In this document: one piece after another, positions 36,700 to 58,404 of the stretch
Layout of the letters: the number at the start of each line of letters is the position of its first letter
How positions within the stretch are numbered: the first letter of the stretch is position 1
Source: Prorocentrum cordatum
Lineage: Eukaryota; Sar; Dinophyceae; Prorocentrales; Prorocentraceae
Assembly (NCBI GenBank): GCA_963575745.1
Contig: CAUYUJ010018055.1
Coordinates: 1-64,000, forward strand
Direction of reading: 5' to 3'
Length of the DNA: 64,000 nt
Made by a program: the position numbers and the translations under genes
The notes under the pieces: generated by a model
Seen by the model: only the letters and a program-made list of their open reading frames with translations
Databases searched by the model: none
Told to the model about the DNA's origin: nothing

Positions 36700-36701
36700 A
36701 C

Positions 36702-36743
<42 letters not shown>

Positions 36744-36744
36744 G

Positions 36745-36790
<46 letters not shown>

Positions 36791-36815
36791 CAGAGAGAGA
36801 GAGAGATAGAAGGAT
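36700..36815. repeat. (GA)n microsatellite
   Basis: GAGAGA with GATA and GACA interruptions. Confidence 0.95.
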
Positions 36816-36974
36816 AACGGAAAAAAGGGTGGGGCACCGAGGTTGAAGGAGGGAGATCAAAGGATGGTCTTGGGCAAACCACCGCGGCTGTGGGCAACGA
36901 TGTTCAGCGAAGCCTTTCAAAACGATCGGTCTCAAGACAACACAAAAACGACGGGAACGTTCAGAAACCGCGAC

Positions 36975-37271: not shown

Positions 37272-37273
37272 TA

Positions 37274-40019: not shown

Positions 40020-40792
40020 CTTGGCTCCAACAAAAGTTTCCTTGGAAACTCGCAAGAGGAATGATATGTATGTAAACCCGTCGGCAAGATGAAAAGTCGC
40101 GCGCGCGTGCTCAGCGTTCGCACGCACCAGATCCCAATACGTCCCACGGCCACAACATCCTTCCAGGAATGCCTCAGGCCACGGACGATAACGTCCAGTG
40201 GACCCAGGATGATGCCACCCCAACGCGATCCCGCCATGGATTCTGGACCGTCTCAGGCCGACTCGCAGATGACGAAACACATGAGCAACGCGTGGCGCCG
40301 AGATGGCCCGATGGCAACAAGATGGATCCAAGCGCACCCAGGGTGGCCTCATAATGACCACGCGATGGTTGCGTGGTCCAAACATGACCGGGATATGATC
40401 TCAAGATGACCTCAAGACGACCCCAACACGGCAGTAATACTGCAACTTATGAGCCCCATCTTACTTCGAGCCGATCCCAGCATGGTGGGATCCGTGAACG
40501 GCCCGGGATTTTGGTCTACCCCATTTTTAATGGGTGGGATTTGGACCGTCCTGAACTAAATTTATAATATTAAAGCGGAATAAGCCAGGCGGGATCCCGC
40601 CCGGCCCACGGAGGAAGACAACATTGCTAGGCTTCTACGGGGGTAGGGGGTTCGGAAGGGGCGTCGTTTACTTCCGCTGACATTGGCAAGCCTTCCGGCG
40701 GCCTTCCCCCGTCTTCCGCCTCGTTTTACTTCCGTCGACTTCCGCCGGCCAGCGTCGTGATGAAAATTCCAGGAACTTTCATTGGGCCGATG
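40020..40792. mobile_element. TIR-ended module M2 (773 bp)
   Basis: As M1, with CTTGGCTCCAAC at the left end; joined to arrays on both sides. Confidence 0.8.
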
Positions 40793-42676
40793 CGTCGGTT
40801 TTACATCCCGCGCGACAGGGATGGCAACTCAGTTCGGCAGTGGGACAAGTCGGCGTCATGGCCAACGCGCGTCAGAGGCACCAGCGAACCTGGAGCCAAA
40901 ATGGCTACCGGACATGCGGGGGCTCGACAGGCTGCGTCGGTTTGTACATCCCGCGCGACAGGGTGGCAACTCAGTTCGGCAGTGGGACAAGTCGGCGTCA
41001 TGGCCAACGCGCGTCAGAGGCACCAGCGAACCTGGAGCCAAAATGGCTACGGACATGCGGGGGCTCGGACAGGCTGCGTCGGTTTGTACATCCCGCGCGA
41101 CAGGGATGGCAATTCAGTTCGGCAGTGGGACAAGTCGGCGTCATGGCCAACGCGCGTCAGAGGCACCAGTGAACCTGGAGCCAAAATGGCTACGGACATG
41201 CGGGGGCTCGGACAGGCTGCGTCGGTTTGCACATCCCCGCGACAGGAATGGCAACTCAGTTCGGCAGTGGGACACTCGGCTTCCATGGCCAACGCGCGTC
41301 AGAGCACCACGAACCTGGAGTCCAAAATGGCTACGGACTCGGGGCTCGGACAGGCTTGCGTCGGTTTGTACATCCCGCGCGACAGGGATGGCAACTCAGT
41401 TCGGCAGTGGGACAAGTCGGCGTCATGGTCAACGCGCGTCAGAGGCACCAATGAACCTGGAGCCAAAATGGCTACGGACATGCGGGGGCTCGGACAGGCT
41501 GCGTCGGTTTTTACGTCCCGCGCGACAGGGATGGCAACTCAGTTCGGCAGTGGGACAAGTCGGCGTCATGGCCAACGCGCGTCAGAGGCACCAGTGAACC
41601 TGGAGCCAAAATGGCTACGGACATGCGGGGGCTCGGACAGGCTGCGTCGGTTTTTGTAACATTCCCGCGCGACAAACGAAACGGGATGGCAATTCCAGTT
41701 CGGCAGTGGGACAAGTCGGCGCCATGGCCAACGCGCGTCAGAGGCACCAGCGAACCTGGAGCCAAAATGGCTACGGACATGCGGGGGCTCGGACAGGCTG
41801 CGTCGGTTTGTACATCCCGCGCGACAGGGATGGCAACTCAGTTTGGGGGGGAAGGGGGGGGGGGGGGCGACAGTGGACAACCGCGTCGTTGCCACGCGCG
41901 TCAGAGGCACCAGCGAACCTGGAGCCAAAATGGCTACGGACATGCGGGGGCTCGGACAGGCTGCGTCGGTTTGTACATCCCGCGCGACAGGGATGGCAAC
42001 TCAGTTCGGCAGTGGGACAAGTCGGCGTCATGGCCAACGCGCGTCAGAGGCACCAGGAACCTGGAGCCAAAATGGCTACGGACATGCGGGGGCTCGGACA
42101 GGCTGCGTCGGTTGGCTACACATGCGGAGGGCTCGGACAGGCTGCGCAACGGTTCGCAGTGGGACAAGTCGGGTCATGGCCACGCGCGCGAGGCACAGTG
42201 AACCTGAGCCAAAATGGCTACGGACTCGGACAGGCGCGTCGGTTTGTACATCCGCGCGACAGGGTGGCAACTCAGTTCGGACAGTGGGACAAGTCGGCGT
42301 CATGGCCAACGCGCGCGTCAGAGGCACCAGCGAACCTGGAGCCAAAATGGCTACGGACATGCGGGGGCTCGGACAGGCTGCGTCGGTTTGTACATCCCGC
42401 GCGACAGGGATGGCAACTCAGTTCGGCAGTGGGACAAGTCGGCGTCATGGCCAACGCGCGTCAGAGGCACCAACGAACCTGGAGCCAAAATGGCTACGGA
42501 CATGCGGGGGCTCGGACAGGCTGCGTCGGTTTGTACATCCCGCGCGACAGGGATGACAACTCAGTTCGGCAGTGGGACAAGTCGGCGTCATGGCCAACGC
42601 GCGTCAGAGGCACCAGCGAACCTGGAGCCAAAATGGCTACGGACATGCGGGGGCTCGGACAGGGGGCTCGGACAGG
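40793..42676 (-). repeat. 143-bp tandem array A2 with SL-like 22-mers, partly degraded
   Basis: About 13 units with the same structure as A1. Small deletions accumulate at 41220-41350 and 42100-42290, and one unit has an insertion with a G-rich run at 41842-41868. Confidence 0.75.
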
Positions 42677-43451
42677 CTTGGCTCCAACAGAAGTTTCCTT
42701 GGAAACTCGCAAGAGGAATGATATGTATGTAAACCCGTCGGCAAGATGAAAAGTCGCGCGCGCGTGCTCAGCGTTCGCACGCACCAGATCCCAAGACGTC
42801 CCATGGCCACAACATCCTTCCAGGAATGCCTCAGGCCACGGACGATAACGTCCAGAGGACCCAGGATGATGCCACCCCAACGCGATCCCGCCATGGGTTC
42901 TGGACCGTCTCAGGCCGACTCGCAGATGACGAAGAACATGAGCAACGCGTGACGCCGAGATGGCCCGATGGCAACAAGATGGATCCAAGCGCACCCAGGG
43001 TGGCCTCATAATGACCACGCGATGGTTGCGTGGTCCAAACATGACCGGGATATGATCTCAAGATGACCTCAAGACGACCCCAACACGGCAGTAACACTGC
43101 AACTTATGAGCCCCATCTTACTTCGAGCCGATCCCAGCATGGTGGGATCCGTGAACGGCCCGGGATTTTGGTCTACCCCATTTTTTAATGGGTGGGATTT
43201 GGACCGTCCTGAACTAAATTTATAATATTAAAGCGGAATAAGCCAGGCGGGATCCCGCCTGGCCCACGGAGGAAGACAACATTGCTGGGCTTCTACGGGG
43301 GTAAGGGGGTTCGGAAGGGGCGTCGTTTACTTCCGCTGACATTGGCAAGCCTTCCGGCGGCCTTCCCCCGTCTTCCGCCTCGTTTTACTTCCGTCGACTT
43401 CCGCCGGCCAGCGTCGTGATGAAAATTCCAAGAACTTTCATTGGGCCGATG
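42677..43451. mobile_element. TIR-ended module M3 (775 bp)
   Basis: The right end abuts TA (43452-43453) inside RNase H; the left end of the whole block abuts TA at 37272-37273. TA on both sides is what a mariner-like insertion would leave. Confidence 0.8.
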
Positions 43452-43453
43452 TA

Positions 43454-43964
43454 GTCCGTCACAGAGGTGAACGACGGATTTGCCTTGAGGCGAGTTTCCT
43501 CGCCGTAGTACATTGGCCCCGCGTATGCCGTAGCCCTTGGTCTCATCCTCCTCCTCCCCGGTGAGCTTCCGATGCCCCGAGTCGCTGTGTATGTCAACTT
43601 CACTCGTCGGCTTCATCCGAGGGAAGGTGATGCGTTTCGGGCTGCTGATCAGCTTTCGCGTCACAGCATTCAGTCGCCTGACTTGCAGGTTGGTGGGCTC
43701 TTGGATTTTCTGGAGAGAGACCGCGTATACCATGAGCCAGATTTGAGTAAGAAGGGCATAGGCGAGGGCTCCTCGCAAGCTGACGAACATGTCGGTAATG
43801 AGTTTCGTGGCTTTGGCATCGGCCGCCGCTCCTGTAAGTTCTGGGTGTGTGATAAGACGTAGGTGTTTGATATACTCGTCCTGATCCATGATCACATCCC
43901 CTCGGCCATTCCCCTTGGCGCAGTTCGTATACGAGTGTTTGTTAAGCTTGCATGTGCCAAACAC
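43454..43964 (-). pseudogene. RT-RNase H junction, 5' part before the insertion
   Basis: Third frame: FGTCKLNKHSYTNC, DVIMDQDEYIKHLR, ELTGAAADAKATKLITDMFV, LRGALAYALLTQIW, QEPTNLQVRRLNAVTRKL, then the start of RNase H, SEVDIHSDSGHRKLTGEEED and GYGIRGANVLRRG. It runs to VVHLCDGL and is cut at the TA at 43452-43453 by the inserted TIR module. The expected continuation CKSHRLQVRS is found at 34383 and again at 37271. Confidence 0.75.
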
Positions 43965-45510
43965 CTTTTCGACACGTTGTACATAGTCGTCAATCTTTTC
44001 TCTAGGCCTGTCATATTAATATCATCTACACGTTTTGCCGTTAGCAAATCTTGGCTGAATTCAAACTCAGGAACATAACTGGTCGGTGCAAGGCCTATAG
44101 CTCGTGCGGTCGTACGAAGTTTGAGAGAGAACGCTCTTGGGGCGTCCTTTGTATCCGTTCCTGGTTTGAGGCACCTGAGGCAGTGTCGGCTTTCGTCATG
44201 GGATGAAAAGCCGGGTAGTGAACGGAGTACCTGGGCACTTCCCGGTGGAAGGGCGAAGCAAACCATGCGAGTTTCCTCGCCGGTGGCATGGGCAAGTTCC
44301 TCATAGGTCAGACCCTTGAGGAACGCCTTGTCGATATCCATGGATGCTAAGATCCACTCTGGATGGCACGCCGCCTCACTTGCCAGGAGTCTCTGGGACT
44401 GCCCTCGGGCGTTTCCCGAGAAAGTTTCCACATCGAAAGCCTCAGTATCCATAAATCCACGAAGGACAAGTCTGAGACAAATGGTTTTAACGTTCTCGGT
44501 ACCCACCTTCACAAACTTCCACTTATATGCATACATGGAAGTCATGATGTTGGAAGCTTTGGAATAATCGTACATCTCACAGCATCGGTTATCAATCCAG
44601 ATTATGAGTTCAGTGTACAAAGCTTCACTGACCTTTTTTGGATGTGCTGCTATTTCGGCTTTGGTGAGTAGGTCATCTTCTTTGACTACCACAGCGCGTT
44701 TAGCAGCAGAGGATACATATACTCTCATCGTTGCGACCATATCCGTGTCGAGCTGTGCAAGTTGAGTCTGATCCAACACTACCTTTGACATTTCTGATGT
44801 AAAACAAAACTCAACATAGGGACCATATTCATCACTGTCAAGAGAGTAGCTCTCATCAGTTGTGGTTGAGCAGAGAGAGACTAGACAGGGCTCTCGTGGT
44901 TCAGGCTCGTCTCCGAGCAGTTCCGACAATACGAGATCTTCTTCGTCCACAGATGCTGAAACCAAAACACATTGGTCGGGCAGCATGGTTGTTGGGACGC
45001 AGTAGAGATAATCGTCGGTAGTTGTCGTGGGATGAAGGTCCATACGTAACTCGTCGTACCACTCTTCCAGTATCATAGCTTCGATATTATGTTCCTCGCT
45101 TTCTGCATAGATTGTCGACAGAAGGCCTTCACTCGGCGACGAAGCACCTGGGGTATCTGGTGGAGGCCTGTTTCCAGGCGAATCGTGTTCTCCAGACGTG
45201 GTGCTTGAGTGCTGATATTTGGCCAGGTCGTCGTGAAATCCTAAGGAAGGGACATGTGAAGTCAAGCATTGAATAAGTCTGGAATGAGTGCTACCAGTGA
45301 TTTGAGAAATGTTCAAGCCAGTGCCCACACACTCATAGCAGTGGAAGGCTGGGCTGATATCATTGTCGTAGTGGATCAGCGTAGACCCGGCGGCGTACTT
45401 TACTGCAGGTAGACTTGACACACTTTTGGCCCATCTAACTGCTACTACGTGTTCTACTCGGAAATAATTCCGCACGAGATACTGTAGCGCTAGATGCACT
45501 TGCTGTCGTC
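43892..45510 (-). CDS. Copia-type reverse transcriptase (RVT_2)
   Basis: Reads in a frame shifted from integrase (change near 45510). An acidic linker precedes the RT. Conserved parts are AHPKKVSEALYTELIIWID, LRLVLRGFMDTEAFDVETFS, WILASMDIDKAFLKG (motif A Asp), KPGTDTKDAPRAFSLKL (motif B, the Copia-specific DAPRAF) and AKRVDDINMTG (motif C, VDD). The normal His-Val-Asp-Asp is Arg-Val-Asp-Asp here. The frame is lost near 43960, where the fingers-to-RNase H connection moves to another frame. Hairpin copies at 44267 and 44905 are read in frames different from those in gag. Confidence 0.8.
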
Positions 45511-45603
45511 TGGAAGATTGAGGTTTTCATTGTAGTCTGGGATGTAGCCGAAGACTTCGGCAGGTTTCCCTGCACCGAGGTGTGCCACATACGGAAGGAC
45601 GCT

Positions 45604-46785
45604 TTACATGGCCATATTATCCATGCCAAGTTCCCGTGCGAGGAGGCATTCAATGTATCGTGTGCGACGAGCATCAGGATACATCACAATTACCTCACGA
45701 GATCCTGCCCTGGCAACAATATGTCCTCTTTCCGGCACGTTACGGATCACAGGGAATGGGCCGTTCCAGCCTCCATGATCGTCCTTAGTGGCAGTGGGTC
45801 GATGGTAGTCGACCAGATCGCCTGCTGAGTAAAGGCGAGCACCATCTGGAGCCGTTGTAGCCCTGAGAGCACGATTTGTCTTGGCCACAGCAGTGGCTTG
45901 AGTTATGGCTTCTCGGCAAACTTCCCTCACACGGAGTTCCCGTTCATGGCCTGATGTCTCGGGCCCCTTGGGAAAGTCAAGGGTGTCGAGGTCAGGAAGA
46001 AAGGAGGGCTGACGTCCGGTGTGTGCTTGGTCTGGCGATACTCCGTTGTAAAACGTGAAGGCGTTGGCAACGAAGATGCCTTCAGCCAAAACTCTAGTGA
46101 ATACAACAGGGATGTTGTGTCTATTCAGCTCTTCCTCAATCATGTGGAGGACGCCCCTGAAAAGGCCGCTTCGTGACTCAATTGAAGTCGCGTGTTGGCC
46201 AGGCGCTCGGATACGGAGTTCTGCACCCTTATTGGCCATCATGGCCTTAGCGGCATCATTGTTCAGGGCGCCTTCTCCGTCTGAGTATAGGACTTTGAAG
46301 TGTCCATGATAGGCAATCCAGCAGTAGTGGTAGGCGTCAAGTATAGCATCACGTTCTCTGTCGGAGATTTCTTGGCCTGCCGCCAGGCGAATACAACGAT
46401 CCATAATGTGAAATATGGTCCGTTTCTTGTAAAACATGAGATCCATTTCGCCTTCATCGAGCCAATTACCAGGAAGGCTCATCGAAGGTAATGTTGAGTT
46501 TCCTGGACGTTCCCCTGCTCTGCATTCCCGACAGGTATCGCAAACTTCTTTGATCATATTCAGTCGGACGCTGTCCAGTCCCACTTTGTCTAGGATTAGC
46601 CTCATCTCGGGTTCCTTCGCATGATACCACAGCAGGTGCAGTTTACGGAGTTCCTGTTTAACGACATAAGGTTCATGACTACGGAGATTTTGCAGACTGT
46701 GTTGGGCGTCGAATCTCGTCCAGTCGGGTAGTCGTGGAGCCCCCGAGACGGTGGAGGCAAGCGGGTTCCTTGTAGCTCTCCGCAG
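45604..46785 (-). CDS. Integrase (zinc-binding and DDE core)
   Basis: Same frame as the preceding segment after one TGA. The N-terminal HHCC module is QELRKLHLLWYHAKEPEMR ... CDTCRECRAGERPG. The core has GEMDLMFYKKRT (first Asp), KVLYSDGEGALNNDAAKAMM (second Asp) and APGQHATSIESRSGLFRGVL (Glu, with spacing close to 35 residues). A C-terminal SH3-like part includes YSAGDLVDYHR and GPFPVIRNVP. It catalyses insertion of element cDNA; the 5-bp duplication at the element ends is what Copia integrases make. Ends at TAA 45604-45606; coding continues in the same frame for about 30 codons before a shift. Confidence 0.8.
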   Translation of the reverse strand: MRRATRNPLASTVSGAPRLPDWTRFDAQHSLQNLRSHEPYVVKQELRKLHLLWYHAKEPEMRLILDKVGLDSVRLNMIKEVCDTCRECRAGERPGNSTLPSMSLPGNWLDEGEMDLMFYKKRTIFHIMDRCIRLAAGQEISDRERDAILDAYHYCWIAYHGHFKVLYSDGEGALNNDAAKAMMANKGAELRIRAPGQHATSIESRSGLFRGVLHMIEEELNRHNIPVVFTRVLAEGIFVANAFTFYNGVSPDQAHTGRQPSFLPDLDTLDFPKGPETSGHERELRVREVCREAITQATAVAKTNRALRATTAPDGARLYSAGDLVDYHRPTATKDDHGGWNGPFPVIRNVPERGHIVARAGSREVIVMYPDARRTRYIECLLARELGMDNMAM

Positions 46786-49503
46786 TCAGTCTCCTTCGTC
46801 AGCTGCATCTGGTGGTGGTGGTACGCCTTGTAGGCGGCCACGACGGGCCGCTACCTGTGGCGCTTCGCCAGAGGACGCAGCAGGCGCGTTTCCACGCTCG
46901 GGGGCGTCTCGTAGCATGTCGTAACTGCTGGCACCAGATGTCGGATCAACGTTACCGAAGGATCGTGGTCGCGGTGGCCTGGCGCGTGCGCCTTGGCGGC
47001 CACCTGGCGCTGAAGCTCGGCCCTCACCAGGTTTAGGTAAGGGTTTCCACCAAGCTGGCACGGTCTTACCTTCGGGGTCGTGGTCATCTGGAAGTTTAAA
47101 CGGTTCAGCAACACGACATTTACCAGATTCGGTATCGAGGTGGTTCTTAACACCTTTGCTTCTCGTAAGATCCCTCTGGCATGCGGGACATGGCCAATAT
47201 ACAGAGATGGAATCATGATACTTACACTGCGTAGGGTCTCTGTTGTGGCTAGGACTGTCCTTTCGGACGTTGTCGATGCATGCCGGGCATGTGGCCACCT
47301 TTGGGATGATACGATCACCGATGCGTCTCACACCTTCGCCTGGTTCGGCTTGATCAGGAAGGTCAGCAGGGTAAGCATGTGCAGTACTTGTAGGCGCGTT
47401 TCCGCGCGTAGTATCAATGGCTTTCGCCAAATAGACGGCTTCCACAAAGGCAGACTGCAGTCGTCGAGTGTATTTTTGTGCCAGTGAAAGCTCTCTGTTG
47501 CAAGGTTGTGCGTGCACAGGCTGACCGTTGCATTTGAGTCGCTCAAAGGGTTTAAGAATCGTCTCGTCATTGCTGGTGAAATTTGTCGGCTTCTTAATAT
47601 AGTCACCAGCCGTATCTTTGAGTCCCGTCGCACACTGATCAATGCGTACGGTTGTAATGTGTGGTCGGTTGGCAAGTTTCTTCCATGGGGAGATATAATC
47701 CACCCATGTTCCTGTAGGTTGTTCGCGTATAAACCACCTCCGTGCATCATCTTGAGTAACAGCAATTTTACCACAATAAGTTATGTGTGGTATATCTTCT
47801 TTGTGGTGCTGTTCCCAAGTGTTGTGATTGACTTTGTAGTTTTAGTAGGATGGTGGTCCTGTGGTGCGGCAACTGGGTTGTAGCATGGCAACTCGTACGT
47901 AGCATGTAGCGAAGTAGTGATCTACCACCCGCTGCACCGATGGGGTCTCCCAGGTCGACATATGCGGTCTTGTCTAGGTTGCCTCCTGAGGAGAGTCCCC
48001 TTGAGAAGGCAAGCTCTGAAATACCACCCTCACCGCCACAAAGCTCCAACCTATCCACGCAGTTGTTATGACTATAGCATAGTGTAGCAACTATGCTGTA
48101 TATGTCAGCGTGTGTGTCGGGCATAGCTGTGGGGAGGGTAAGGAACAGGTCGTCGTCCTCATCGGAGCTTATCAGCTCAATAGGGACGTCAGTACTCCAG
48201 GTCGCCATAAGATCCTGTCCGAGTCCTGACAAGTCGTCGCCGCAATCGTCGTTTCCGTCTTCAACGTGTTTTTAATGCGACGAGGCTTGATGCCTGCTTC
48301 CTTTTCGGCTTTGGGCCTTTCCTTCTGCTTGATACGCGATCCTGTAGGTAAGACTTGCTCGTTTTGTTCGCCGGTCTGCGTGCCCATTGTCGTGGTTGGG
48401 TGGGCACACGCGTCAATCGCCAGAGTCGGGAGGGGGGGAGAACAGTCATCTATGATGACGCGTCGAGGTTTCTGTGGTGATTGAGTCGGCTCGTTTCCGA
48501 GCAAGACCGGTTCCTCGGGTTGCCAATACAACCGAGTGCTGATGTTGGCAACCCCTGCAGGTAGTGGTGCATGCCAATCATACCCTGTTGGTTGATCGGC
48601 GACTGAGATATCCTGAATAACCGCATTGGTATCCAGGTTAATCGTTACACGTCGGATAACATCAGACCATTTCGGTCCTCCTGTGTTGGTCGTCACGTAG
48701 TGATGGATGTTATGGTCCGTGCGTGTATAGGTGTTCAGATATATTGGCACGTTTCCGTGCGTGGTGGTGCTTCCCAAGATTCTGTCGTTCAGGTGACGGA
48801 TGAGTGTAGTACGTGTCTGAGCTCGCCATTCAGCATGCCGTACCGTATGACCATACCAATCCAACACATGTTGTGGTATCGCCTGTTTGCATGTACGTGC
48901 CCACAGTTTCGAGCTAATCGGTATTGATGTCGCTACCTGCATATAAGTACCACTCGGTGTACTGTCTTGCATATTGAACCGAATACCGAAATGACACAAA
49001 CGCATCCGTATCACTGACAATTTAAGATCTTCCAGGGTATCACGTACTGGAGATAACTTCCAAACAGATCCTGGGAAACCAAATATTATGATTTTCATGC
49101 GGAGTTTCCTGGCTTTTATCAAAAGGTTCTGGATACGTGACCAATGTGGGGCCACTCTCTTTCCTGGAGTTCGTACATACCAGTCACCCGGGGTACTAAT
49201 CCATATGAGAGTGTAATCTCCACTGATCACCGCACCCAGGCAATCTGTGCCCACGCTCGTCATAAGCTCATTGTGGGAAATACGATCACAGATATAACCT
49301 CGGGCGCGGAGGTCGGCGCAAGCCTCTCTCGTATCTTCAATGACAAAAGCCCTCTTACTAAGGCAGGTTACCCCGCTGTCCTTGTTACCCCCCGGCTTTT
49401 CGGCCAACAGGCAAGACGACGAGGGGGCGACGTCGCCCTGCCATCTTCAAGATAAAGAAGATGTGCCTGCAATGTCTGCCAGCATCTGGGCTCCCCTCAG
49501 ATG
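46786..49503 (-). pseudogene. Methyltransferase-like segment with zinc fingers, multiple breaks
   Basis: Frame 1 (49503-~48274): FVIEDTREACADLRARGYIC, LIWISTPGDWYVRTPG, MKIIIFGFPGSVWK. A shift in an A5 run (48269-48273) leads to another frame (to ~47930) with VDRLELCGGEGGISELAFSR, resembling the SAM-binding motif I of cytosine methyltransferases. It then returns to the first frame with VRVAMLQPSCRTTGPPS (PxC loop position), a TAA at 47842-47844, FIREQPTGTWVDYISPW, VRIDQCATGLKDTAGDYIKK and PTNFTSN. Cys/His clusters follow (ATCPACIDNVRKDSPSHNRD; YWPCPACQRDLTRSKGVKNH), then a Pro/Arg-rich tail and TGA 46786-46788. I know this layout from other dinoflagellate Copia elements; enzymatic function is unproven. 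At least two frameshifts and one stop. Confidence 0.6.
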
Positions 49504-50855
49504 CTAGAGCTCAGCACTGCAGCGCGCCGTGGCCTCAGAGGCGGATTGCTCCGCAAATGCTGTCAGCATGGATGGATTATCCATCAGCTGCTTCAGCACG
49601 CCTTCGGACCTCGCGTCGCTGACTGTCGGCAATTCACGGTTCGTGTACCCCATCACTATCTTCCGGCGGGACCGCACAGCGTCCATGGGTACACTTCTAC
49701 CATGCTGGGCCAGTGCCCTGGCTACGAAGCAACCGAACGTCTCAAGATCGTCGATGCTGTCGCCTCTCATCGTAGCCTTGGCGAGCGTCTCCAACAAACC
49801 CTGAGGCAGGTTTCCCTGCAATCGCTCGCGCTCCCGCGCCGGGGTCGGCTCGCCCGTCAGCACCGTCTGGAATGACGTGCTGATTGAGCTCGAGGCGGGT
49901 TGCCCCGCAGCTCCAAATCGATCACACCTGATCGACAGATGCCCTGACGGCAACTTCGTCGTCGGCATGATCTTGGAACCCTCGGGGAGCTCCATCTTGA
50001 CCTGCCCCTTCCCAGGGAATATCAGCTTCTCCTGGCCTCGTTCAAGCACAATGATCGTGCGTTTGTCCTGCATACTATCGAGGCCTAGGATGGCTGGCAG
50101 GTCTTTGCCACAGCCTGACACAATGTTCGTCTTGTACGAATCGAGCTGGGTCGAGCCCTGGTACTCGCAGGCAATACTGAATGTGCCTACGGTATCCGCT
50201 GGGGCCGACCCTTCGCCGACCCCGTTGATGTTCAAACGAGAACGGGGATCGAACGTAAAGTACGGCCGCGTGCCTCAGCAGCCTGGACGAACTTGCGGCT
50301 CGTGTTCTCACCCATGATGTTGATCTTCGAGCCTACATCGATGAGGATAGAGTTTCCACCATCGTCCAAGAACGTCTTACTCGGCTGCTTGATGTACACC
50401 GTTTCTGAAGTGTCGGCTGTGCCGTCTGGCGGGTTTCCCCGCGAGTCGGTCGCACTCCCTGGCGGGCTACCCCGCATGACGCTGGCATACGGCCTGCCTT
50501 CGGCCATACGTACCAGGTCGATGTACTGGAAGTACGACACGTGCTGAAAATGAGCGCCACGTTCCTCCCGCCAGTTGGCATACTCATAACGTATGCTCTT
50601 ATACTGCTCGCGGGTCGTGCGTCTCGTCAGAGTCAGATACAAGTGAAGGGCAATGTCCTGCAACCCCTCATTCGTGAGGTGATCCCTGTACTGCAGCCAC
50701 TCCTCGAACTCCTCGTTCGTCGCTGTGATGTCAACGGCCCTGGCTGCTGTTGCTGCTATTGCCACTGAGGAACCTGAGAGGTCAAACGACGCACCATCAG
50801 TCTCAGGATTGTCGGCGTCCAGCATAAAAGTTGTGTGCGCATTATCCATTTGATT
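49504..50855 (-). pseudogene. Aspartic protease (retropepsin-like) segment, frameshifted
   Basis: The upstream part (50855-~50262, same frame as RING) runs through EEFEEWLQYRDHLTNEGLQD, a helical linker, to NSILIDVGSKINIMG, where the D-V-G-S occupies the DTG(S/A) active-site position. The next part is one frame over (from about 50262): LNINGVGEGS, TVGTFSIACEY and ILGLDSM, the flap and second conserved LGxD-like step of single-domain retropepsins. One indel near 50250-50265 explains the change. The domain is followed by GQEKLIFPGKGQVKMELP and ends at TAG 49504-49506. The D-V-G variation and the shift make activity unlikely in this copy. Confidence 0.65.
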
Positions 50856-51641
50856 CTAGAAATGCCGAACACGCAGCTCACGCAACTGATCAGGGTCCAG
50901 TGCCGTCTCTGCCCCGCCCCCACTCTGGGGAGACATCTGAGGAGTGTTAGGCAGGTTTCCCTGCTGAGGCGCCGTCATCGGGATAAGCTGATCGAAGTAT
51001 CCCGTCTCCATCGGCGGCCTCACCTCCTCTGGCAGGTTTCCCTGCTGCTGGGGCTGAGCTGTCTGCCTATCTAGCATCCTGGCTGTCATCTCCTCCACCA
51101 TGCTCCTCAACTCCCGCAGCTCTCTCGCTGCTTGCTCAGGAGTCTGAATGAAGGAGCCTGTCCACGGGAATGCTGACGCTATGATGCCAGGTGCTCGGCA
51201 GATAGCACATGGTGGCTGCTGAGGATCTCCCTCGCGCTGATTTGCGACATGGCCCACCGTGTTTGAACTCCAGCACCCCTCATGGAATAAGTGATTACAC
51301 CTCAAACGATAAACACTTTCCCTGGGCTGAAATTCTTCGAGGCATACCGCGCAGGTATCTTCCATCCCAGTGAAAACTTCCACATCTGCTGCTCTGGGAT
51401 ATACCCGCCGCTGTCTCTCCAGGACCGTTTCGGAGGGCATGAAGGCTGCTGGGGGATCCACTGATGGACCCAGCACCTCCGGCACTCCGGCAGCCACAGC
51501 TGGAGGGGCTGCTGGCGCGGAGGCTGTAGGCGCCACAGCAGGCGATGTTCCTCGCAATGGTGAGCCTCTGCTCCTCACGACCTCAAGCGCGGCTGCGCGC
51601 GAATGATCACGCACGTTCTGCACGGCCTGTCTGCGCCTAAA
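50856..51641 (-). CDS. RING-H2 finger segment of the polyprotein
   Basis: Same frame as the KptA segment after one TGA. An Ala/Pro-rich start leads to DTCAVCLEEFQPRESVYRLR, CNHLFHEGCW and PPCAICRAPG, giving C-x2-C-x14-C-x-H-x2-H-x2-C-x21-C-x2-C, a complete C3H2C3 (RING-H2) set. RING-H2 proteins usually act as E3 ubiquitin ligases by recruiting E2 enzymes. A helical ELRELRSMVEEMTARML stretch follows, and then a Gln/Pro-rich tail containing two copies of the 14-nt hairpin. Ends at TAG 50856-50858. Alternative: a structural zinc module without ligase activity. Confidence 0.75.
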   Translation of the reverse strand, partial: FRRRQAVQNVRDHSRAAALEVVRSRGSPLRGTSPAVAPTASAPAAPPAVAAGVPEVLGPSVDPPAAFMPSETVLERQRRVYPRAADVEVFTGMEDTCAVCLEEFQPRESVYRLRCNHLFHEGCWSSNTVGHVANQREGDPQQPPCAICRAPGIIASAFPWTGSFIQTPEQAARELRELRSMVEEMTARMLDRQTAQPQQQGNLPEEVRPPMETGYFDQLIPMTAPQQGNLPNTPQMSPQSGGGAETALDPDQLRELRVRHF

Positions 51642-54179
51642 TCATGCCTGTTGAGTACGGTATGTCTGCCTGATATAATCAGGCACACCTCTACTGCCAG
51701 ACGGTATCGAATGGGCAGTGGGTTGGACAGCCACATCTGGCGTCGTCGGCGCAGGCATGAAGGCCATGTGCGGATACATGGACTGATCACTACAGCGCAC
51801 GTTAGTGAGGCTGTGGAACTGATCCGCCATTTCACGAACAAACTTGTTCGGGACTCTAGACCCATCAGGGTACAGTGGCGGATTCATGTGTGCTGGCGGT
51901 GGCCTCTGGCCCTGGGCCATGCTCGGGTGAGCATTGAAGGCTGGGGTGAAGGCTCGTTGCCGAGCAGGATCCCTTGGATTGGGACCCTCAGGCTCCCAGG
52001 GCCAGGCCGGCCTCCACCTCTGACCACTTGGGTGCGGCAGATTATGGATCTGCACCTGCTGCACAGCGGCTGCCACCCTTGCACGGTAGTCTTCAGGCAC
52101 ACCAGCGACAGAGGTATGACCAGCAAACGGTCGTGAATGGCCTGGGGTGCCGGGCAGGTTTCCCTGCTGACTCGTTGGAGTGCCAGGCGGCATCATGTTC
52201 AGGAGAGCTGCACCATGCTCAGCCCTAGCCGCTGCGATCCTCTCCATGAGGGTGCCACTCGTGGCAGGGCGACCAGGAGTCCCGAACGGAGACTGTGCAG
52301 GTGGCGTCGCCATTGGGGTCATGCCTCTCGGCGTGTGCATACTTGGCGAGGGGCTACCATGCATCTGCTCGAATCGAGCAGGCTCTCCAAAGATGCGGCC
52401 GAACGTCTGCGGGTCTCCCTGCGGCTCAGGCATCTCATTTCTGAGTCCATTTATACGCAGGTTTCCCTGCATGGTCTGACGATTTCGCGTCGCCATGGCG
52501 GACATTGCCCCCTGGCCAGCGGCCCGGGGGTCTTGTTGGTATACCCTGTCGGCCAATTGCTCCACCTGTTCAGGGTTCAGAGCGGCCGCTATCTGGCCCA
52601 GGTCCGAGGTGCTGATGGCCTGCCAAGATATGGCGCTAGGCCCTTGGCTTGGGGCGCGGCGTGGTGCCGCGCTCCCGGCCTCACTCTCGGTGATCATGAA
52701 GATCTGGTGGGCCTCAGGCTGGTTTCCCAGCGTGGCAGGGCTGTAGTGGTCCCCGACCTCCCTGTGGAGGTAGACCATGGGAGGGTCGACGCCCTCTTGG
52801 TCTCGGGACCACTGGCATTTGACGCTGGCACTGCCAACGTCAGCCCACCTGCCAGGGTTCGAAAGCACGGCGGGGAGAACACGCACCCGGCGATCCCCCA
52901 GGCACTCTGGATTGCGCCAGTGCTTCCCCGTGGCAAGGTCCTCTACATGGGAAATGTAGTAAGGTTCGATGATACCATTATTTCCCTCGGACAAGAGGAC
53001 TCCGTTATCAGACCAACCGAACTTTATACCATCTTGCATGGCCTTGTGCCAATCTACGAAGATGATCATGTCAGATTCTGGGCCCCACCCACTGTTCACG
53101 GCACGACGGCGGACCGTCGGCACGAAGTGGATGCGCGACCGGCCTGTCCTCCGTTTCTTCGTGTTGTGCTCGGGTCTACAGGACAGGCCGTGCCACAGAA
53201 TGCCTTCGAAGGCATCCCACCGAGTGCCATGCATGGCGACCTCGGGGCACGGGGCCGGTCTCCCGGCAGGTTGGTCGCACAGTACAATATAATTGTACAG
53301 CGACCATGGAGCTTTCAATGTCCATGAATGCCCCTGAGAGGAGCGGATGAAGATCTCGGGCTCGCCGGAGTCCCGCACTAACACCTTGAACTGAAGGCGC
53401 TGTTATTCTTCACCGTCTGGTTCACGGACATGAACCACTTCCATCATGATGGCCGCCAGTCGGTCCACCGATCGACCATATAGGTTCGCGGTGATGACCT
53501 TGGCCTCGTCATGTCTGGGATTGTACCCATCATGCCTCGATCGCCCGGTTTTCCATGGATACTTATTCACGAGCTCTACGAGGTTAATCCAGCCATCATG
53601 ATCATCGAATGTAGCCAGATCCCACACAGGATCATGTGCTCTGTCCGGCGCATGTCTGCATATCCTACTGAGAGCTTTGCTCAGTTGTTTGAGGGTGTGA
53701 TTGGATCTCGGGATAATGTTGTCTTGCCTGCATTTTCGCATGAATTCCTCATCCACCGAGCGCATCGGTGGGAGTTTCCGCAGAGCAAGTCTATCCCTGA
53801 TCACACTCGGAGTCCCACTGGTGAAGGACGTGTCTCCTGGGCGGCGCAGCTGATCCACGGGCGGGTTTCCCCGCACAGGAGCCTCTGTCGCTGAAGAGGC
53901 TGCGGCTCCTGACGAGGAGGAAGCTGCAGCAGCAGCGCCTGGCGGGTTTCCCCGCGGTGATCCGCGACTGGCGCTACCCCTAATCGTCGGCACCCAGTTG
54001 CCCCTAGACATAGCACCTTCGTCGGACCTTTTGGAACGGGCCGCCACAGGCGAAGCTGGCGCAGGGGCATACCCTGTGCGCTCGAAAGCCGCCGCCTTCT
54101 TGGCAATGGAACTGCTACGACTAGGCGGGCGTCTCCGTTCCTCCACAGGGTCCTGAGGTTGCTGCTTGGGCTCAGATAC
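51642..54179 (-). pseudogene. Tpt1/KptA-family RNA 2'-phosphotransferase domain (one in-frame stop) plus Gln/Pro-rich tail
   Basis: Tpt1/KptA enzymes move the 2'-phosphate left by RNA ligation onto NAD+. The N-terminal lobe is in the part 54179-53403: QLSKALSRICRHAPDR (canonical LSKxLSxxLRHxP, with the Arg-His pair) and DGWINLVELV (GWVxVxxLL). After an in-frame TAA at 53403-53405 the same frame continues QRLQFKVLV, then IFIRSSQGHSW (RxxQGHS), MHGTRWDAFEGILWHGL (HGTxxxxxxxIxxxGL), RSRIHFVPT (RxHxHLS position), MIIFVDWHKAMQDGIKFGWS and NGVLLSEGNNGIIEPYYI. The catalytic Arg/His positions I can place are all present. A Gln/Pro/Met-rich ~450-residue tail without a recognised domain follows, ending at TGA 51642-51644. 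The stop falls between the two lobes, inside the domain, so either the copy is inactivated or the stop is read through. Confidence 0.8.
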
Positions 54180-56300
54180 TTATGCTGGAGTTGCGCCAAT
54201 CGGCGATCTCGGAGTTTCAATGCGAGGCGCCTCCATCTGCACATCTGGCCCAGGATCCTCAGAGCGCGCTTTCGGTCTCACATCCGAAGACGACTTCGGT
54301 GCTGGAGTTTCACTCTTAGCCTTCGATTGTAGTGGGAGCGGGGGTTTCTTAGCCCCCTTCATGTAAATATTTTTGGAGCCCAACAGCATTTGGCGAGTTG
54401 CCTCGCGCGCGCGTTCTTCAGCTATCCGCATGCGTTCCTCATCCGCCGCAACTCGCTGGGCCTTCTGTTCATCCTTAGATGTCGATTCTGGTTGTTGGGG
54501 CTGGCTGGAAACGCCGGGCGAGTTTCCTCGCATTCCAGGAAGATTAAAGAACGCGTCTTTTTCTTCCTGGGTCATGGGCACCAGTCCTCCCCTTGGAACC
54601 GGAGGAGGCTTATCCTCTTCATCTTTCGGCTCCAAGTGACCCACGATCCCGAGACGACGATTGACCTCTGCGATCTCGTCCTGTGTCATCGGGATCAGAG
54701 GCGGATGGACGCCCTCCTTTTGAGGGGTTTTGCCCCTGTTTGGGCTCAGACCTTCATGGTTTCCTACAGGGCATCCCGGCCTGTGGTTCTGGAACGGCTC
54801 GGAACATGGTCCACGCGCTGCTTGAGGCCTATGCAACTTGCGAGCCGCGATAACGTTTCGCAACTGTGTCCGCACTTCTTCAATTTCAGGGCGGCGGATG
54901 TTTGTTGCAATTTGATAGCCTCCGCGGATGGCCTTACCCTGAGGGTCCCTATAGGCAGGGTTGCCCTTGCCGAAGGCCGAATGTTCCCCTTTACGGCATC
55001 TTGGATCACTGTACGGAAGTAGTTCGCCTCCTCGCCTGAGAGCGTGTTCCTTTGGGCCAGCTTGCCTCCGCTCACGGGGAAGCCGAGCCTGAGGGTGTGG
55101 CTCTCCTCTGACGCGCGGATGGGAACGAGACCTCCCAGCATTCTCATCAGAAGAGGCTGCCGAAGCAGCCTGAGTAGAAGCCGGCGGAGGCGCCGGCGGA
55201 GGCTCCTGTGCGATCCCAGGTGGATCGGCTAGTAAAGGCGGGTTTCCCTGCTGGCTGGAGCTCGGCGCAAATGGCGCTTGTGTCGATGGTGATGGTGCTT
55301 CAGGCTCGTCAGGATCAAAGTCCACCTCTACCTCACCGTTGACTTCCATCATGAGGATTGTGGCTTCATCCTCGCCTAGCCCGCAACCGTCGCCCTCTTC
55401 TTCTTCTGATGTAGAGCTACCAATGATGATGGCCATTGGCGCAGCCGGGACAGGCAGGTTTCCCTGCATAGCCGGCGTCTGTGCGTCGCTCGGCTGTCCC
55501 GGGGCAGGCGGCACGGTTGTCGGCTCAGGCTCGTTGCCGAGCACAGGCTGCGCAGCAATGTTGCGCATGGCAGTGTTATTTGGCCATAGTCCCGCCGCCT
55601 GGAGACCCCATCCTGGCGGAGGAAGAGCCTGGCCGCGCATGGCGATGGCCCTTTCAAGGGCATCGCGCCATCTCCCTCGGGAGTACCACACATGCCTCTG
55701 CACGTCCTCAGGGTGCACGCTGTCGATGGGGGTCAAAGCTGCCAACGCTAACTCCGAGTCGTCGCAGGCGTCAGTGTCCTGCAGCATCATGATGCCAGCT
55801 TCGATGCTTTCTTGACTCTCGGGATATGCGATGGTCAATACCTCGTGCATCCTCATGAGGGTTTGCAGTAGTGTGCGTGGTCCGTACTCGCCTGGAGCAA
55901 GCGAACCAGGGGGTGCAAATGGGACCTCTGGTGCGCCTGCAATGAAAGCTTGAACGGGCGCTTGAGACTCCATTTCTATAAGTTCACCATACCTTCGGGG
56001 ATAGATGGGCCTGTTTCCAGGCGGGAGTTCAGGTGGAGGTTGGAGGTTGCGGTCAACCTCGGAAGGCGAGGCCTCAACAGTGATGTCCTCGCCACTGCTT
56101 TCGTGGGCCATGATGTTGCCTGGGTCCCCAAACATCCAGTCGAATAAAGACAAAGGCTGGTTTCCCAGCGAACCGTGATCCACGGGGGTGAGCTCGTTGT
56201 TGCCAACAACGAACCTGCGGACGTACTCGAGGTAGTACGCGTACAATCCATGACCATACGCCTCGAGCTCGTCGACGTTGTCCATGCAACTGACCCAAGT
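54180..56300 (-). CDS. Pro/Glu-rich central segment of the polyprotein, function unknown
   Basis: In frame with gag after one TAA; ATG at 56285. About 700 residues, rich in Pro, Gln, Glu and Ala, with acidic patches (SSTSEEEEGDG), a basic patch (RLPRERRQAGPKEHALRRGG) and a repeated IPMTQDEIAEVNRR / VPMTQEEKDAFFN motif (tandem-like copies ~35 residues apart). A helical, charged region KDEQKAQRVAADEERMRIAE precedes a Lys/Pro-rich tail. No family recognised. The scattered GNxP tetrapeptides are translations of the hairpin repeat, not a protein motif. Ends at TAA 54180-54182. Confidence 0.55.
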   Translation of the reverse strand, partial: TWVSCMDNVDELEAYGHGLYAYYLEYVRRFVVGNNELTPVDHGSLGNQPLSLFDWMFGDPGNIMAHESSGEDITVEASPSEVDRNLQPPPELPPGNRPIYPRRYGELIEMESQAPVQAFIAGAPEVPFAPPGSLAPGEYGPRTLLQTLMRMHEVLTIAYPESQESIEAGIMMLQDTDACDDSELALAALTPIDSVHPEDVQRHVWYSRGRWRDALERAIAMRGQALPPPGWGLQAAGLWPNNTAMRNIAAQPVLGNEPEPTTVPPAPGQPSDAQTPAMQGNLPVPAAPMAIIIGSSTSEEEEGDGCGLGEDEATILMMEVNGEVEVDFDPDEPEAPSPSTQAPFAPSSSQQGNPPLLADPPGIAQEPPPAPPPASTQAASAASSDENAGRSRSHPRVRGEPHPQARLPRERRQAGPKEHALRRGGELLPYSDPRCRKGEHSAFGKGNPAYRDPQGKAIRGGYQIATNIRRPEIEEVRTQLRNVIAARKLHRPQAARGPCSEPFQNHRPGCPVGNHEGLSPNRGKTPQKEGVHPPLIPMTQDEIAEVNRRLGIVGHLEPKDEEDKPPPVPRGGLVPMTQEEKDAFFNLPGMRGNSPGVSSQPQQPESTSKDEQKAQRVAADEERMRIAEERAREATRQMLLGSKNIYMKGAKKPPLPLQSKAKSETPAPKSSSDVRPKARSEDPGPDVQMEAPRIETPRSPIGATPA

Positions 56301-58289
56301 TTAAAATATCTGTTCCATGGCCTCAAAATCCTGGAGGCTCAAGTATTCGATGAATGGTTCACTTGAGCCACAATGGACTTCGGTCGATCTGCCCTTTCCA
56401 TTTCCCTTCGCTTGACAATCTCTCACAAGATGGTCGGTGCTATCACAGTCATGGCACTTTACAACCTGGCCGTCTCTACCTCGCGGGTTTCCCCGCCTAC
56501 CTTTGCCTTTTCCTGGGGTCTCTCCACGGCCTTTGCCGCGGCCATTTCCCCCGAAGAATATCTCATCATACTGTTCATCCGAGAGCCTCTGGAGGAATGC
56601 CGCGACGCCTCGTCCGTTCAACCTCCGACGGCCCCGCTTGCCTTTACCTTTTCCTTTGAAACTCCTCCGTATCCTCCTCCTAACACGTCGCACTGGTTTT
56701 CGTGTGAACCTTCTCCACCTCCGTTTAGCCTGTTGTAATAACCAAAATAGGTGTTCAGCACGCTGGTGGTCAGTTTCCATATTCATAATATCTGACCAGT
56801 CTAAAGCTTCAAGACCGTCGGATGATGCAGTATCAGTGTCGGTGCCGGAGTCGAAATTATATTCTCCCAAGTAGGTGGACACACCGTCGGCAAGGGGGTT
56901 TGATTCACCCCACAGAGAACGGTTTGGTTGAGGTTCTCTGGAAGGAGGGCTGGTTGCCCAGCTTGGTTGTGGTCGATCCCCTGCTGATAAAGCAGTAGAT
57001 TCTCCGGGATCGTCGGCCCATATGCTTGAGGGCCCGTTTCCAGGCTGGGCTTCAGTGGTTAAGGTAGTGTAGAAATTTCCACTACCAGATCCCCTTCCCC
57101 TTCCAAACACAGATCCTATATTGCCAGGAGACCGTTCTGCTAGGTGGCCTATCGAACGCATCCTCTCCAGCAACTCATCATGCTGTTGTTGAGTTCGGGG
57201 CATTTGATGATTGAGTGGCTGTAAGAGTTGCATGGCTCGCTGGTCGCCGACGCCTATGGCGCGGAACAGGATCGTGGTTAGTAACTGGAAGTTGGGAAGG
57301 TCGAGTCCCACCGACTGTGCCTCAAGTCGGGCCATTTCGAATCGGGTTAGAGTGACATCGATTCGTTCTCCGTGAGGCACATGGAAGTCGATGAGCTGCG
57401 TGCCGGAAGTGAGCTGGCGCTCATCTTCCAGGCGCTCGAACTTCATGCTTAGGAGGAACATGATGTAGGTCACTGGGTCTGTGTGGACCCCATCGAGGTC
57501 AGCATCATAGTTTATAATGTCAGGTGGTACCCTCATGGCGAGTGTCCTCGCTAGGCCACCTAGGCCGCGTTGCATGGCGGCCGCTTGGGCCTGTGGCGTC
57601 ATACGTCCGCTAGTGACGTTGAGCCATGCGTTGACCTCATAAGCGTACTCACGAAAAGGTACGTTGCCTTGAGGGTCCCAATATGGGCCATGTGTTTGCC
57701 CATCGGTGCTGTTTTCTCCGCGGCGCATGTGTCCGATTGCTGCCCCCAGCGCGAACCATATGATAGCGAATATAACCAGCCCAAGGCTGTGTAGATAGGG
57801 GTGGTTATTAGGCGCGTTGCCGCGCTGGGGTAGCGCCTTGTTGAGTCTTCGAGGCGCTCTATCTGGCGGATCTCTCCGCCCATGCTTCAAGTATTGCGCT
57901 TTGGGATCGTTGCCGAGCGGTTGGTAGTAGCGCAGTGATGAAGCGTATATGGTACCAATGTTGTTGTCTAGACGTCGTACCTCTCGTGTTGCTTCTTGCT
58001 CTTGTATAGATCCTCGCAAACGTACTGGGAGTGGTAGCGCAGGGTGGTAGGTGGTCACGAGGATCGTGCCGAAGAGTATGAGGATGAGAAGAGCAAGAGC
58101 TGACCACACGAGGGTGCGGCCAGCTCCGCTACCAAGTCGAAAGTGAGCCTGGTAGGTCAAATAGCATTCGTCTCCATGGGAGGCGGATGAGCTCACATTG
58201 CATCCAATTCCATGTCGAAGGAATACGATATGGGGAGTGGATGGGTAAGATCGGATAAGATCGATGCATCTGTCTTTCCAGCACATAGC
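56301..58289 (-). CDS. Gag: two N-terminal hydrophobic segments, capsid, CCHC nucleocapsid
   Basis: 662 residues from the first in-frame ATG (58289), which lies inside the 5' LTR; the open frame reads through the PBS into gag. Hydrophobic stretches at residues ~58-79 (TLVWSALALLILILFGTILV) and ~166-187 (LHSLGLVIFAIIWFALGAAI) look like membrane segments. The capsid-like region follows (YEVNAWLNVTSGRMTPQAQA; PVTYIMFLLSMKFERLEDE; ERIDVTLTRFEMARLEAQS), with a mid-protein RMRSIGHLAE block typical of dinoflagellate elements. Near the C-terminus is a Lys/Gly/Arg-rich run (KGKGKGKRGRRR) and a zinc knuckle CHDCDSTDHLVRDC (C-x2-C-x4-H-x4-C). The frame ends at TAA 56301-56303 but stays open in the same frame beyond it. 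Confidence 0.82.
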   Translation of the reverse strand, partial: AMCWKDRCIDLIRSYPSTPHIVFLRHGIGCNVSSSASHGDECYLTYQAHFRLGSGAGRTLVWSALALLILILFGTILVTTYHPALPLPVRLRGSIQEQEATREVRRLDNNIGTIYASSLRYYQPLGNDPKAQYLKHGRRDPPDRAPRRLNKALPQRGNAPNNHPYLHSLGLVIFAIIWFALGAAIGHMRRGENSTDGQTHGPYWDPQGNVPFREYAYEVNAWLNVTSGRMTPQAQAAAMQRGLGGLARTLAMRVPPDIINYDADLDGVHTDPVTYIMFLLSMKFERLEDERQLTSGTQLIDFHVPHGERIDVTLTRFEMARLEAQSVGLDLPNFQLLTTILFRAIGVGDQRAMQLLQPLNHQMPRTQQQHDELLERMRSIGHLAERSPGNIGSVFGRGRGSGSGNFYTTLTTEAQPGNGPSSIWADDPGESTALSAGDRPQPSWATSPPSREPQPNRSLWGESNPLADGVSTYLGEYNFDSGTDTDTASSDGLEALDWSDIMNMETDHQRAEHLFWLLQQAKRRWRRFTRKPVRRVRRRIRRSFKGKGKGKRGRRRLNGRGVAAFLQRLSDEQYDEIFFGGNGRGKGRGETPGKGKGRRGNPRGRDGQVVKCHDCDSTDHLVRDCQAKGNGKGRSTEVHCGSSEPFIEYLSLQDFEAMEQIF
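58123..58134 (-). promoter_or_regulatory. Primer binding site candidate (initiator Met tRNA type)
   Basis: The sense strand reads TGGTAGCGGAGC directly after the 5' LTR. Plant and other Copia elements commonly use TGGTATCAGAGC, complementary to the 3' end of initiator methionine tRNA; this is a close variant beginning with the obligatory TGG. Confidence 0.65.
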
Positions 58290-58404
58290 GAACACTAAGG
58301 TAAGTGTCCGGGCAAATAGGGCGCGCGTGCCTTGAGCCAAAGGCAACGGCGCGCGAGCTACACTCCCGATACTATAACATATCCCAAAGAGCTACCCTTA
58401 AAGT
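58135..58404 (-). repeat. 5' LTR
   Basis: 270 bp. On the sense strand it starts ACTTTAAGGGTAGC and ends CACTTTCGACT; it does not have TG...CA ends. It contains a GC-rich hairpin (GCGCGCCGTTGCC ... GGCACGCGCGC) whose loop region includes TTTGGCTCAAG, the last 11 nt of the spliced leader. Confidence 0.88.

Follow-up and report, generated by a model that had tools for sequence, protein, structure and literature searches.

A dispersed array of sense-strand GNRA hairpins in a decayed Ty1/copia-like retrotransposon of Prorocentrum cordatum

The retrotransposon and its hairpins

The window analysed here (64,000 nucleotides of Prorocentrum cordatum contig CAUYUJ010018055.1, positions 1 to 64,000) contains a decayed Ty1/copia-like long terminal repeat (LTR) retrotransposon on its minus strand, and within this element we observed a dispersed array of short hairpins with GNRA tetraloops. 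The element has a pair of 270-bp LTRs, a 5-bp target-site duplication (TSD; cgctc) flanking it on both sides, a primer-binding-site (PBS)-like stretch (we take tggtagcggagctgg to resemble a tRNA) and a reverse transcriptase (RT) frame matching RVT_2 (E=2e-5, 24.7 bits, under the curated 31.6); the hairpins thus sit in one LTR retrotransposon, as a preliminary description of this DNA had proposed. The two LTRs differ at 16 of 270 bp (K2P, the Kimura two-parameter distance, is 0.062). Their ends are ACTT..GACT, TG..CA ends being absent, and no polypurine tract is found before the 3' LTR, where the sense sequence is C-rich. An Arg-rich run occurs in the gag-like frame, together with CHDCDSTDHLVRDC, which fits the pattern CX2CX4HX4C. 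The frame upstream of RT (46785-45607), examined as the place of an integrase, has no Pfam match, and neither has the frame 34494-33901, which is RNase-H-like by comparison with the ends of related proteins.

A strict scan of the window for GCNNG-GNRA-CN'N'GC hairpins with Watson–Crick stems gave 31, all of them on the minus strand (34 there once G-U pairs are admitted). Twenty-nine of the 31 lie within 43490-57825 and the other two, at 33637 and 33813, between the RNase-H-like frame and the 3' LTR; the loops are GAAA in 23, GCAA in six and GAGA in two. The preliminary description had claimed about thirty hairpins in that interval, in the sense strand only, two copies in the 3' untranslated region (UTR) and none expected by chance in 15 kb, and all four points hold: dinucleotide shuffles of the core of the element (n=400) contain a mean of 0.0075 hairpins and at most one, versus the 29 observed. 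Chance or base composition as the source of the hairpins is ruled out by these shuffles.

The strand bias does not depend on the search pattern. A scan for 5-bp stems with 4-nt loops, which presupposes neither the loop nor the outer pairs, found 60 hairpins in the core (43460-58410); read in sense, 31 of the 60 have a GNRA loop, all of these starting with GC, whereas in antisense only one of 60 has such a loop, and that one does not start with GC. With an A-U closing pair admitted, the minus strand has 33 intact copies and 11 with one deviation, the plus strand 0 and 1; this count covers the retrotransposon with 33915-43462 left out (15.6 kb), and no intact hairpin was found in 33915-43462 or outside the element in a scan of the window. 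The 33 hairpins in 15.6 kb compare with 9.4 per Mb in an unrelated control, 209 viral loci (1.70 Mb) that hold 16 further hairpins on both strands. These loci had each been selected by one exact hairpin copy (two exact 15-mers, giving at least 120 stretches and 89), and all 209 were scanned. Rfam has no match at gathering score in the window. Regular spacing is rejected, though no test for a period was made: the spacing of 42 core copies ranges from 33 to 1095, with a median of 261.

Pairing and flanking bases

In the repeated unit, a stem of five base pairs keeps its outer G-C and C-G pairs constant, while its two inner pairs vary freely but stay complementary; the closing pair is G-C (A-U in two of the 33 intact copies), the loop is GNRA, and a C follows on the 3' side. 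The inner pairs (3/12 and 4/11) take GC, CG, AU and UA. If pairing is not demanded, the pattern GCNNGGNRACNNGC has 38 matches on the minus strand (31 Watson–Crick, three more with G-U) and three on the plus strand, none of them paired. Four minus-strand matches are unpaired: two in the element with an A-C mismatch, one in the 3' UTR (33787-33800) with C-A and U-G, and one outside the element (10034-10047). Among the 34 core matches 29 are paired, whereas shuffling the arms (10,000 shuffles) leaves a mean of 5.0 and a maximum of 13, in agreement with the earlier statement that structure and not sequence is kept. Over 38 copies the covariation score is 0.550 (0.107 when shuffled), 98.9% of cells are paired, and double-sided changes number 37 at the two inner pairs and two at the closing pair; 33 of these 38 rows were picked for being paired, and the arm-shuffle test is the unbiased one.

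The base 3' of the hairpin is C in 30 of the 33 intact copies (P=5e-14), in coding and UTR copies alike. The base 5' of the hairpin is rarely G (four of 33 copies; P=0.03), so that in most copies the stem does not extend past five pairs and the 3' C stays free. Another argument of the preliminary description, that imperfect copies have wobbles that pair only in sense RNA, fails: three copies have sense-only wobbles (57032, 49363 and 46884), but two A-C mismatches (55238 and 52409) would wobble only in antisense, and since both kinds occur, wobbles do not discriminate between the strands.

Coding context

The frame 58391-50235 (2719 codons, five stops) contains 20 intact hairpins, 16 of which share one codon phase and are read as xGNxP. 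This bias could mean that xGNxP turns are kept in linkers for the sake of the protein, with the hairpin a by-product. However, synonymous-codon shuffles of the frame (n=1000) keep a mean of only 0.81 and at most five of the 20 hairpins, so that the RNA, not the peptide, accounts for them; in addition, other codon phases and the 3' UTR carry the hairpin too, and residues 1 and 4 vary jointly as reverse-complement codons. Asn is encoded by AAC at all 15 positions within hairpins of this frame (50 AAC and 34 AAT elsewhere in it). Peptide selection, refuted in the main by the synonymous shuffle, is thus hardly credible, and selection on the hairpins at the RNA level is well supported. The earlier claim that no peptide is being selected stands in this respect, but the frames are not indifferent: the proteins seem to tolerate one hairpin phase best.

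The distance from each of the five in-frame stops to its closest intact hairpin is between 93 and 308 bases. A recoding role, suggested in the preliminary description, finds no support at these distances and is rejected. Frame changes beyond this frame look like decay.

The intact fraction of the hairpins is 0.77 (one-deviation copies counted less the plus-strand background), compared with 0.67 expected from the LTR divergence if all hairpins were intact at insertion and none has been selected since. Deviants at the inner pairs are about equally G-U (three) and A-C (two). Given these figures, selection after insertion is not needed. Two-deviation copies are not in excess (31 on the minus and 32 on the plus strand of the window). 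Selection probably belongs to the replicating lineage, the present copy having decayed since insertion, neutrally as far as can be told.

Related proteins and the origin of the hairpins

We compared the element with 36 related proteins (P0001 and so on); PF07727 is listed for 21 of them, and one, P0019, carries the name of a Polarella glacialis protein whose RT domain is of Ty1/copia type. No relatives were found in viral contigs with RT, RT-alignment, KptA and gag queries, or in genome contigs with RT-alignment and integrase queries. A hairpin in the common phase requires that residues 1 and 4 of X-G-[N/D/H/Y]-X be coded by reverse-complement codons, which can be looked for in proteins. For X-G-[ND]-X, 30 of 85 instances are codon-complementary (16.2 when shuffled), and three offset controls of this class are not above chance. 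Among X-G-[NDHY]-X instances, with two conserved RT motifs and duplicates removed, those with L, P, H, Q or R as the first residue form a subset that follows from the window motif yet was picked after seeing the first test of the relatives; 21 of these 63 are complementary versus 11.5 shuffled (P=0.0012; 24 versus 18.5 with G-U, P=0.044), whereas other first residues give 16 of 100 versus 15.8. The GN class alone gives 14 of 35 versus 8.6 (P=0.015).

Hand-picked linkers give examples. In the LRRG..HL linker the window has RGNS, P0002 RGNT and P0018 RGHT; the RGNA that occurs twice in P0005 corresponds to HGHV and HGRV in P0021; and PGNR stands in the linker around 45179 in both the window and P0001, with RGNT in P0008 and GGNT in P0003. 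There are counter-examples, namely P0010 (HGNT) and other linkers without fitting residues. The codon-complementary residues of the relatives in comparable linkers are a weaker, partly hand-picked signal. GH peptides, which imply a GACA loop, occur in P0013, P0017, P0018 and P0021, and suggest that loop types may differ between families.

How individual hairpins arose can be judged at a few sites. The hairpin at 44267 (without the 3' C) lies in the conserved RT motif TGEKER, where 22 of the 23 relatives in the alignment have E in place of the window's T and no indel is present; it appears to have arisen by substitution, which alone seems able to create a hairpin. The LRRG..HL segment, found in 12 of 23 relatives, has 15-16 amino acids in eight and 25-29 in P0005, P0006, P0010 and P0021. 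The extra length holds fitting peptides in P0005, P0021 and P0006 (RGDT for the last) but not in P0010, so a gain in length can accompany hairpins too.

These sites bear on the idea, raised in the preliminary description, of a tiny selfish hairpin multiplying within the element. Such a hairpin would be copied or inserted in the course of reverse transcription, and its conservation would reflect recent spread and not function. The unit is short and uniform, insertion at the level of RNA or cDNA would account for the strand bias, and three of the four relatives with a long LRRG..HL linker carry their fitting peptides in the extra length. However, the copies have no clear repeated flanks beyond C(T) at the nine lengths examined, and a target-site-repeat test at nine lengths gave a nominal result for k=4 alone (P=0.02), which is nominal at offsets -1 and +3 as well. 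The apparent substitution at 44267 comes without an indel, and the segment at 43490 equals in length that of P0011 (15 amino acids), which lacks a fitting peptide. Stems vary here while loops are constant, the reverse of the sponge mitochondrial hairpins said in part of PMC2800124 to spread as mobile units with conserved stems and variable loops. We consider such a parasite improbable.

Other features of the window

Positions of the element's parts and of all hairpin copies are collected in Table 1.

Table 1. Parts of the retrotransposon and copies of the hairpin in the window
Feature	Positions	Strand	Basis
Ty1/copia-like LTR retrotransposon, decayed, nested insertion ~9 kb (approximate edges)	33250..58404	-	LTR pair, TSD cgctc, PBS-like site, RVT_2
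5' LTR, 270 bp	58135..58404	-	254/270 identical to 3' LTR
3' LTR, 270 bp	33250..33519	-	LTR pair
PBS-like tggtagcggagctgg, directly 3' of 5' LTR	58120..58134	-	sequence
gag-like frame, Arg-rich stretch and CCHC-like knuckle	56304..58391	-	frame reading
RT frame (RVT_2)	43895..45526	-	Pfam match and relatives
Hairpin GCGGAGAGATCCGC, A-U closing pair	57866..57879	-	scan admitting A-U closing pair
Hairpin GCGCGGCAACGCGC	57812..57825	-	strict scan
Hairpin GCTGGGCAACCAGC	56949..56962	-	strict scan
Hairpin GCGGGGAAACCCGC	56483..56496	-	strict scan
Hairpin GCTGGGAAACCAGC	56156..56169	-	strict scan
Hairpin GCCTGGAAACAGGC	56009..56022	-	strict scan
Hairpin GCTCGGCAACGAGC	55529..55542	-	strict scan
Hairpin GCAGGGAAACCTGC	55454..55467	-	strict scan
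Hairpin GCGAGGAAACTCGC	54518..54531	-	strict scan
Hairpin GCGAGGCAACTCGC	54393..54406	-	strict scan
Hairpin GCGGGGAAACCCGC	53942..53955	-	strict scan
Hairpin GCGGGGAAACCCGC	53861..53874	-	strict scan
Hairpin GCCGGGAGACCGGC	53254..53267	-	strict scan
Hairpin GCTGGGAAACCAGC	52718..52731	-	strict scan
Hairpin GCAGGGAAACCTGC	52457..52470	-	strict scan
Hairpin GCAGGGAAACCTGC	52154..52167	-	strict scan
Hairpin GCTCGGCAACGAGC	51952..51965	-	strict scan
Hairpin GCAGGGAAACCTGC	51032..51045	-	strict scan
Hairpin GCAGGGAAACCTGC	50951..50964	-	strict scan
Hairpin GCGGGGAAACCCGC	50429..50442	-	strict scan
Hairpin GCGGGGCAACCCGC	49895..49908	-	strict scan
Hairpin GCAGGGAAACCTGC	49806..49819	-	strict scan
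Hairpin GCGGAGCAATCCGC, A-U closing pair	49541..49554	-	scan admitting A-U closing pair
Hairpin GCACGGAAACGTGC	48747..48760	-	strict scan
Hairpin GCTCGGAAACGAGC	48489..48502	-	strict scan
Hairpin GCGCGGAAACGCGC	47394..47407	-	strict scan
Hairpin GCAGGGAAACCTGC	45560..45573	-	strict scan
Hairpin GCCTGGAAACAGGC	45166..45179	-	strict scan
Hairpin GCTCGGAGACGAGC	44905..44918	-	strict scan
Hairpin GCGAGGAAACTCGC, within conserved RT motif, no 3' C	44267..44280	-	strict scan and alignment
Hairpin GCGAGGAAACTCGC	43490..43503	-	strict scan
Hairpin GCTCGGAAACGAGC, 3' UTR	33813..33826	-	strict scan
Hairpin GCGAGGAAACTCGC, 3' UTR	33637..33650	-	strict scan
One-deviation copy GCTCGGCAACGATC	57905..57918	-	deviation scan
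One-deviation copy, GACA loop	57538..57551	-	deviation scan
One-deviation copy, U-G pair	57032..57045	-	deviation scan
One-deviation copy, A-C mismatch	55238..55251	-	deviation scan
One-deviation copy, A-C mismatch	52409..52422	-	deviation scan
One-deviation copy, GTAG loop	50462..50475	-	deviation scan
One-deviation copy, GGCA loop	49709..49722	-	deviation scan
One-deviation copy, G-U pair	49363..49376	-	deviation scan
One-deviation copy, U-G pair	46884..46897	-	deviation scan
Doubtful copy, GCGG loop, possibly chance	46375..46388	-	deviation scan
Doubtful copy, TGAA loop, possibly chance	55648..55661	-	deviation scan

The polyprotein also contains a Tpt1/KptA RNA 2'-phosphotransferase domain (52983-53690, minus strand; in Pfam, E=1.5e-16 for the main part but only 0.04 for the first part; PDB 7yw3 E=2e-9), which a stop interrupts in this copy. 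It further contains a RING finger (zf-RING_11, E=2.9e-9; 51192-51359, minus strand), which seems unusual for a copia element. By eye, the LTR at 58135-58404 (minus strand) has a GC-rich inverted repeat, and the start of the gag-like frame (about 57720-58115, minus strand) has two hydrophobic, membrane-like stretches.

There are 26 matches in the window (at most one mismatch) to what we take to be the dinoflagellate spliced-leader (SL) sequence. Taken with the Polarella glacialis protein among the relatives, these matches by themselves would point to a dinoflagellate as the very likely host. The nested insertion has, at 37993-42770, 143-bp tandem repeats that hold 24 of the 26 (23 exact), an SL-bearing array resembling SL RNA genes. 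An exact SL is also found just upstream of a LINE-like open reading frame (ORF; Exo_endo_phos and zf-RVT, 4028-9485), and another close to the 5' end of a BCCT transporter ORF that has no interruptions (22435-25218); both ORFs are likely SL-tagged retrocopies. A tRNA-Ser(CGA) is predicted at 3849-3937 (plus strand); the SL and the LINE-like ORF follow about 90 bp downstream.

Possible role of the hairpins

Fixed outer pairs, a tetraloop, a 3' C and freely varying inner pairs give the motif the look of a protein footprint. We tentatively propose, giving it not quite an even chance, that the hairpins are dispersed recognition sites in the sense RNA, selected during replication and most likely bound by the element's own Gag for packaging. 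The genomic RNA would then bear about forty copies of one recognition hairpin, shaped by selection on RNA structure while the element replicated; each would be a putative binding site for Gag, most obviously for its basic region with the Arg-rich and CCHC-like stretches, and many weak contacts could mark, condense and package the roughly 16-kb RNA. No partner would be simpler than Gag, and no purpose simpler than packaging.

Several observations weigh against this proposal. The CCHC match of the gag-like frame in Pfam is only 0.075, below the cut-off. The hairpins show no special accessibility: the mean stem probability in context is 0.74 (23 of 31 above 0.5), compared with 0.68 for other hairpins of the same size and 0.84 for the same 14-mers at random places. 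The DNA of the element is known from one decayed copy, the relatives being compared at the protein level. In the relatives, codon complementarity is in excess with any third residue as well (244 of 1116 versus 192.5), X-G-H-X alone has no excess (10 versus 10.0), and the GH, GD and GY classes are not significant singly in the relatives. One offset control (X1-X5, class NDHYS) is nominally above chance (52 versus 41.1, P=0.029), and once the two conserved RT motifs and duplicates are removed (180, then 163 instances), X-G-[NDHY]-X has 37 complementary instances versus 27.9, which is marginal (P=0.035). Moreover, passages of PMC11381356 place the cis signals of Ty1, Ty3 and HIV-1 in the 5' end. 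The same passages say that Ty3 packaging needs both UTRs and POL, a precedent for signals beyond the 5' end.

A host factor could bind the hairpins in place of Gag, acting in nuclear export, translation, stability or avoidance of silencing. The RNA-level evidence (strand bias, shuffles, synonymous shuffle) suits such a factor equally, as do the likeness of UTR and coding copies and the uniform motif with its 3' C. However, the rest of the window, including the SL-tagged BCCT gene and the LINE-like ORF, has no intact hairpin, so that a general host signal is not evident here; and the relatives, judging from their peptides, may use other loops, which would fit an element-specific partner. We regard a host factor as unlikely.

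The GNRA loop is a classical docking loop, and its presence in 31 of the 60 core sense hairpins of this size would fit an RNA scaffold, in which the loops would dock with receptors elsewhere in that RNA or in another one and compact or dimerise the genome without protein. Docking is not known to require fixed outer pairs or a 3' C, though, and five of the 11 one-deviation copies (two of these doubtful) have non-GNRA loops. A scaffold of this kind strikes us as quite improbable.

If Gag is the reader, a broader and more doubtful possibility is that the Copia elements of dinoflagellates bear an RNA identity code, distributed and specific to each family, by which Gag would tell its own giant RNA from others: dozens of hairpins with free paired stems and a family-typical GNNA loop, in coding and non-coding parts, with loop type and Gag coevolving between families. 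If the main proposal is right, an LTR retrotransposon would mark its RNA along the whole length, as is thought for some small RNA viruses, instead of by a 5' signal alone. Because the pairing is traceable even in proteins, as complementary codons around Gly-Asn, public dinoflagellate data can serve for following it up. The signal could touch a large share of Symbiodinium genomes, where Copia elements are reported, in part of PMC5890265, to be the most abundant retrotransposons. The main text of that paper has no occurrence of 'hairpin' or 'stem-loop', and no description of such a hairpin array was seen in one open-access library among the matches listed (titles and abstract starts).

Comparison with known systems

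In the pairing of phage lambda N with boxB, an Arg-rich peptide reads a short hairpin with a GNRA-like fold, which resembles the contact proposed here, but boxB has a pentaloop, occurs in few copies and serves antitermination. Dinoflagellate Copia elements (PMC5890265, seen in part) belong to the same superfamily and probably the same host group as the element described here. Packaging or dimerisation signals of retroviruses and LTR retrotransposons, such as those of Ty3 (PMC11381356) and the purine loop of MMTV (PMC8096270), are, in the parts of these sources used here, likewise structured cis elements, some of them bound by Gag; they are described in the 5' end, whereas about forty copies are spread over the whole element here. 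The repetitive hairpin-forming elements of organelle genomes (PMC2800124, in part) are also short repeated hairpins, but their conserved stems and variable loops are the opposite of what we found, and the present hairpins are confined to one strand and largely coding. The nearest parallel is with the dispersed packaging signals of positive-strand RNA viruses (STNV-1, parechovirus and enterovirus; sections of PMC7793301), where many small stem-loops with a sparse loop motif are distributed across the genome. The element likewise has many stem-loops with a shared loop motif across its genomic RNA; it differs from these viruses in being an LTR retrotransposon and in the far stricter motif (outer pairs, GNRA loop and 3' C).

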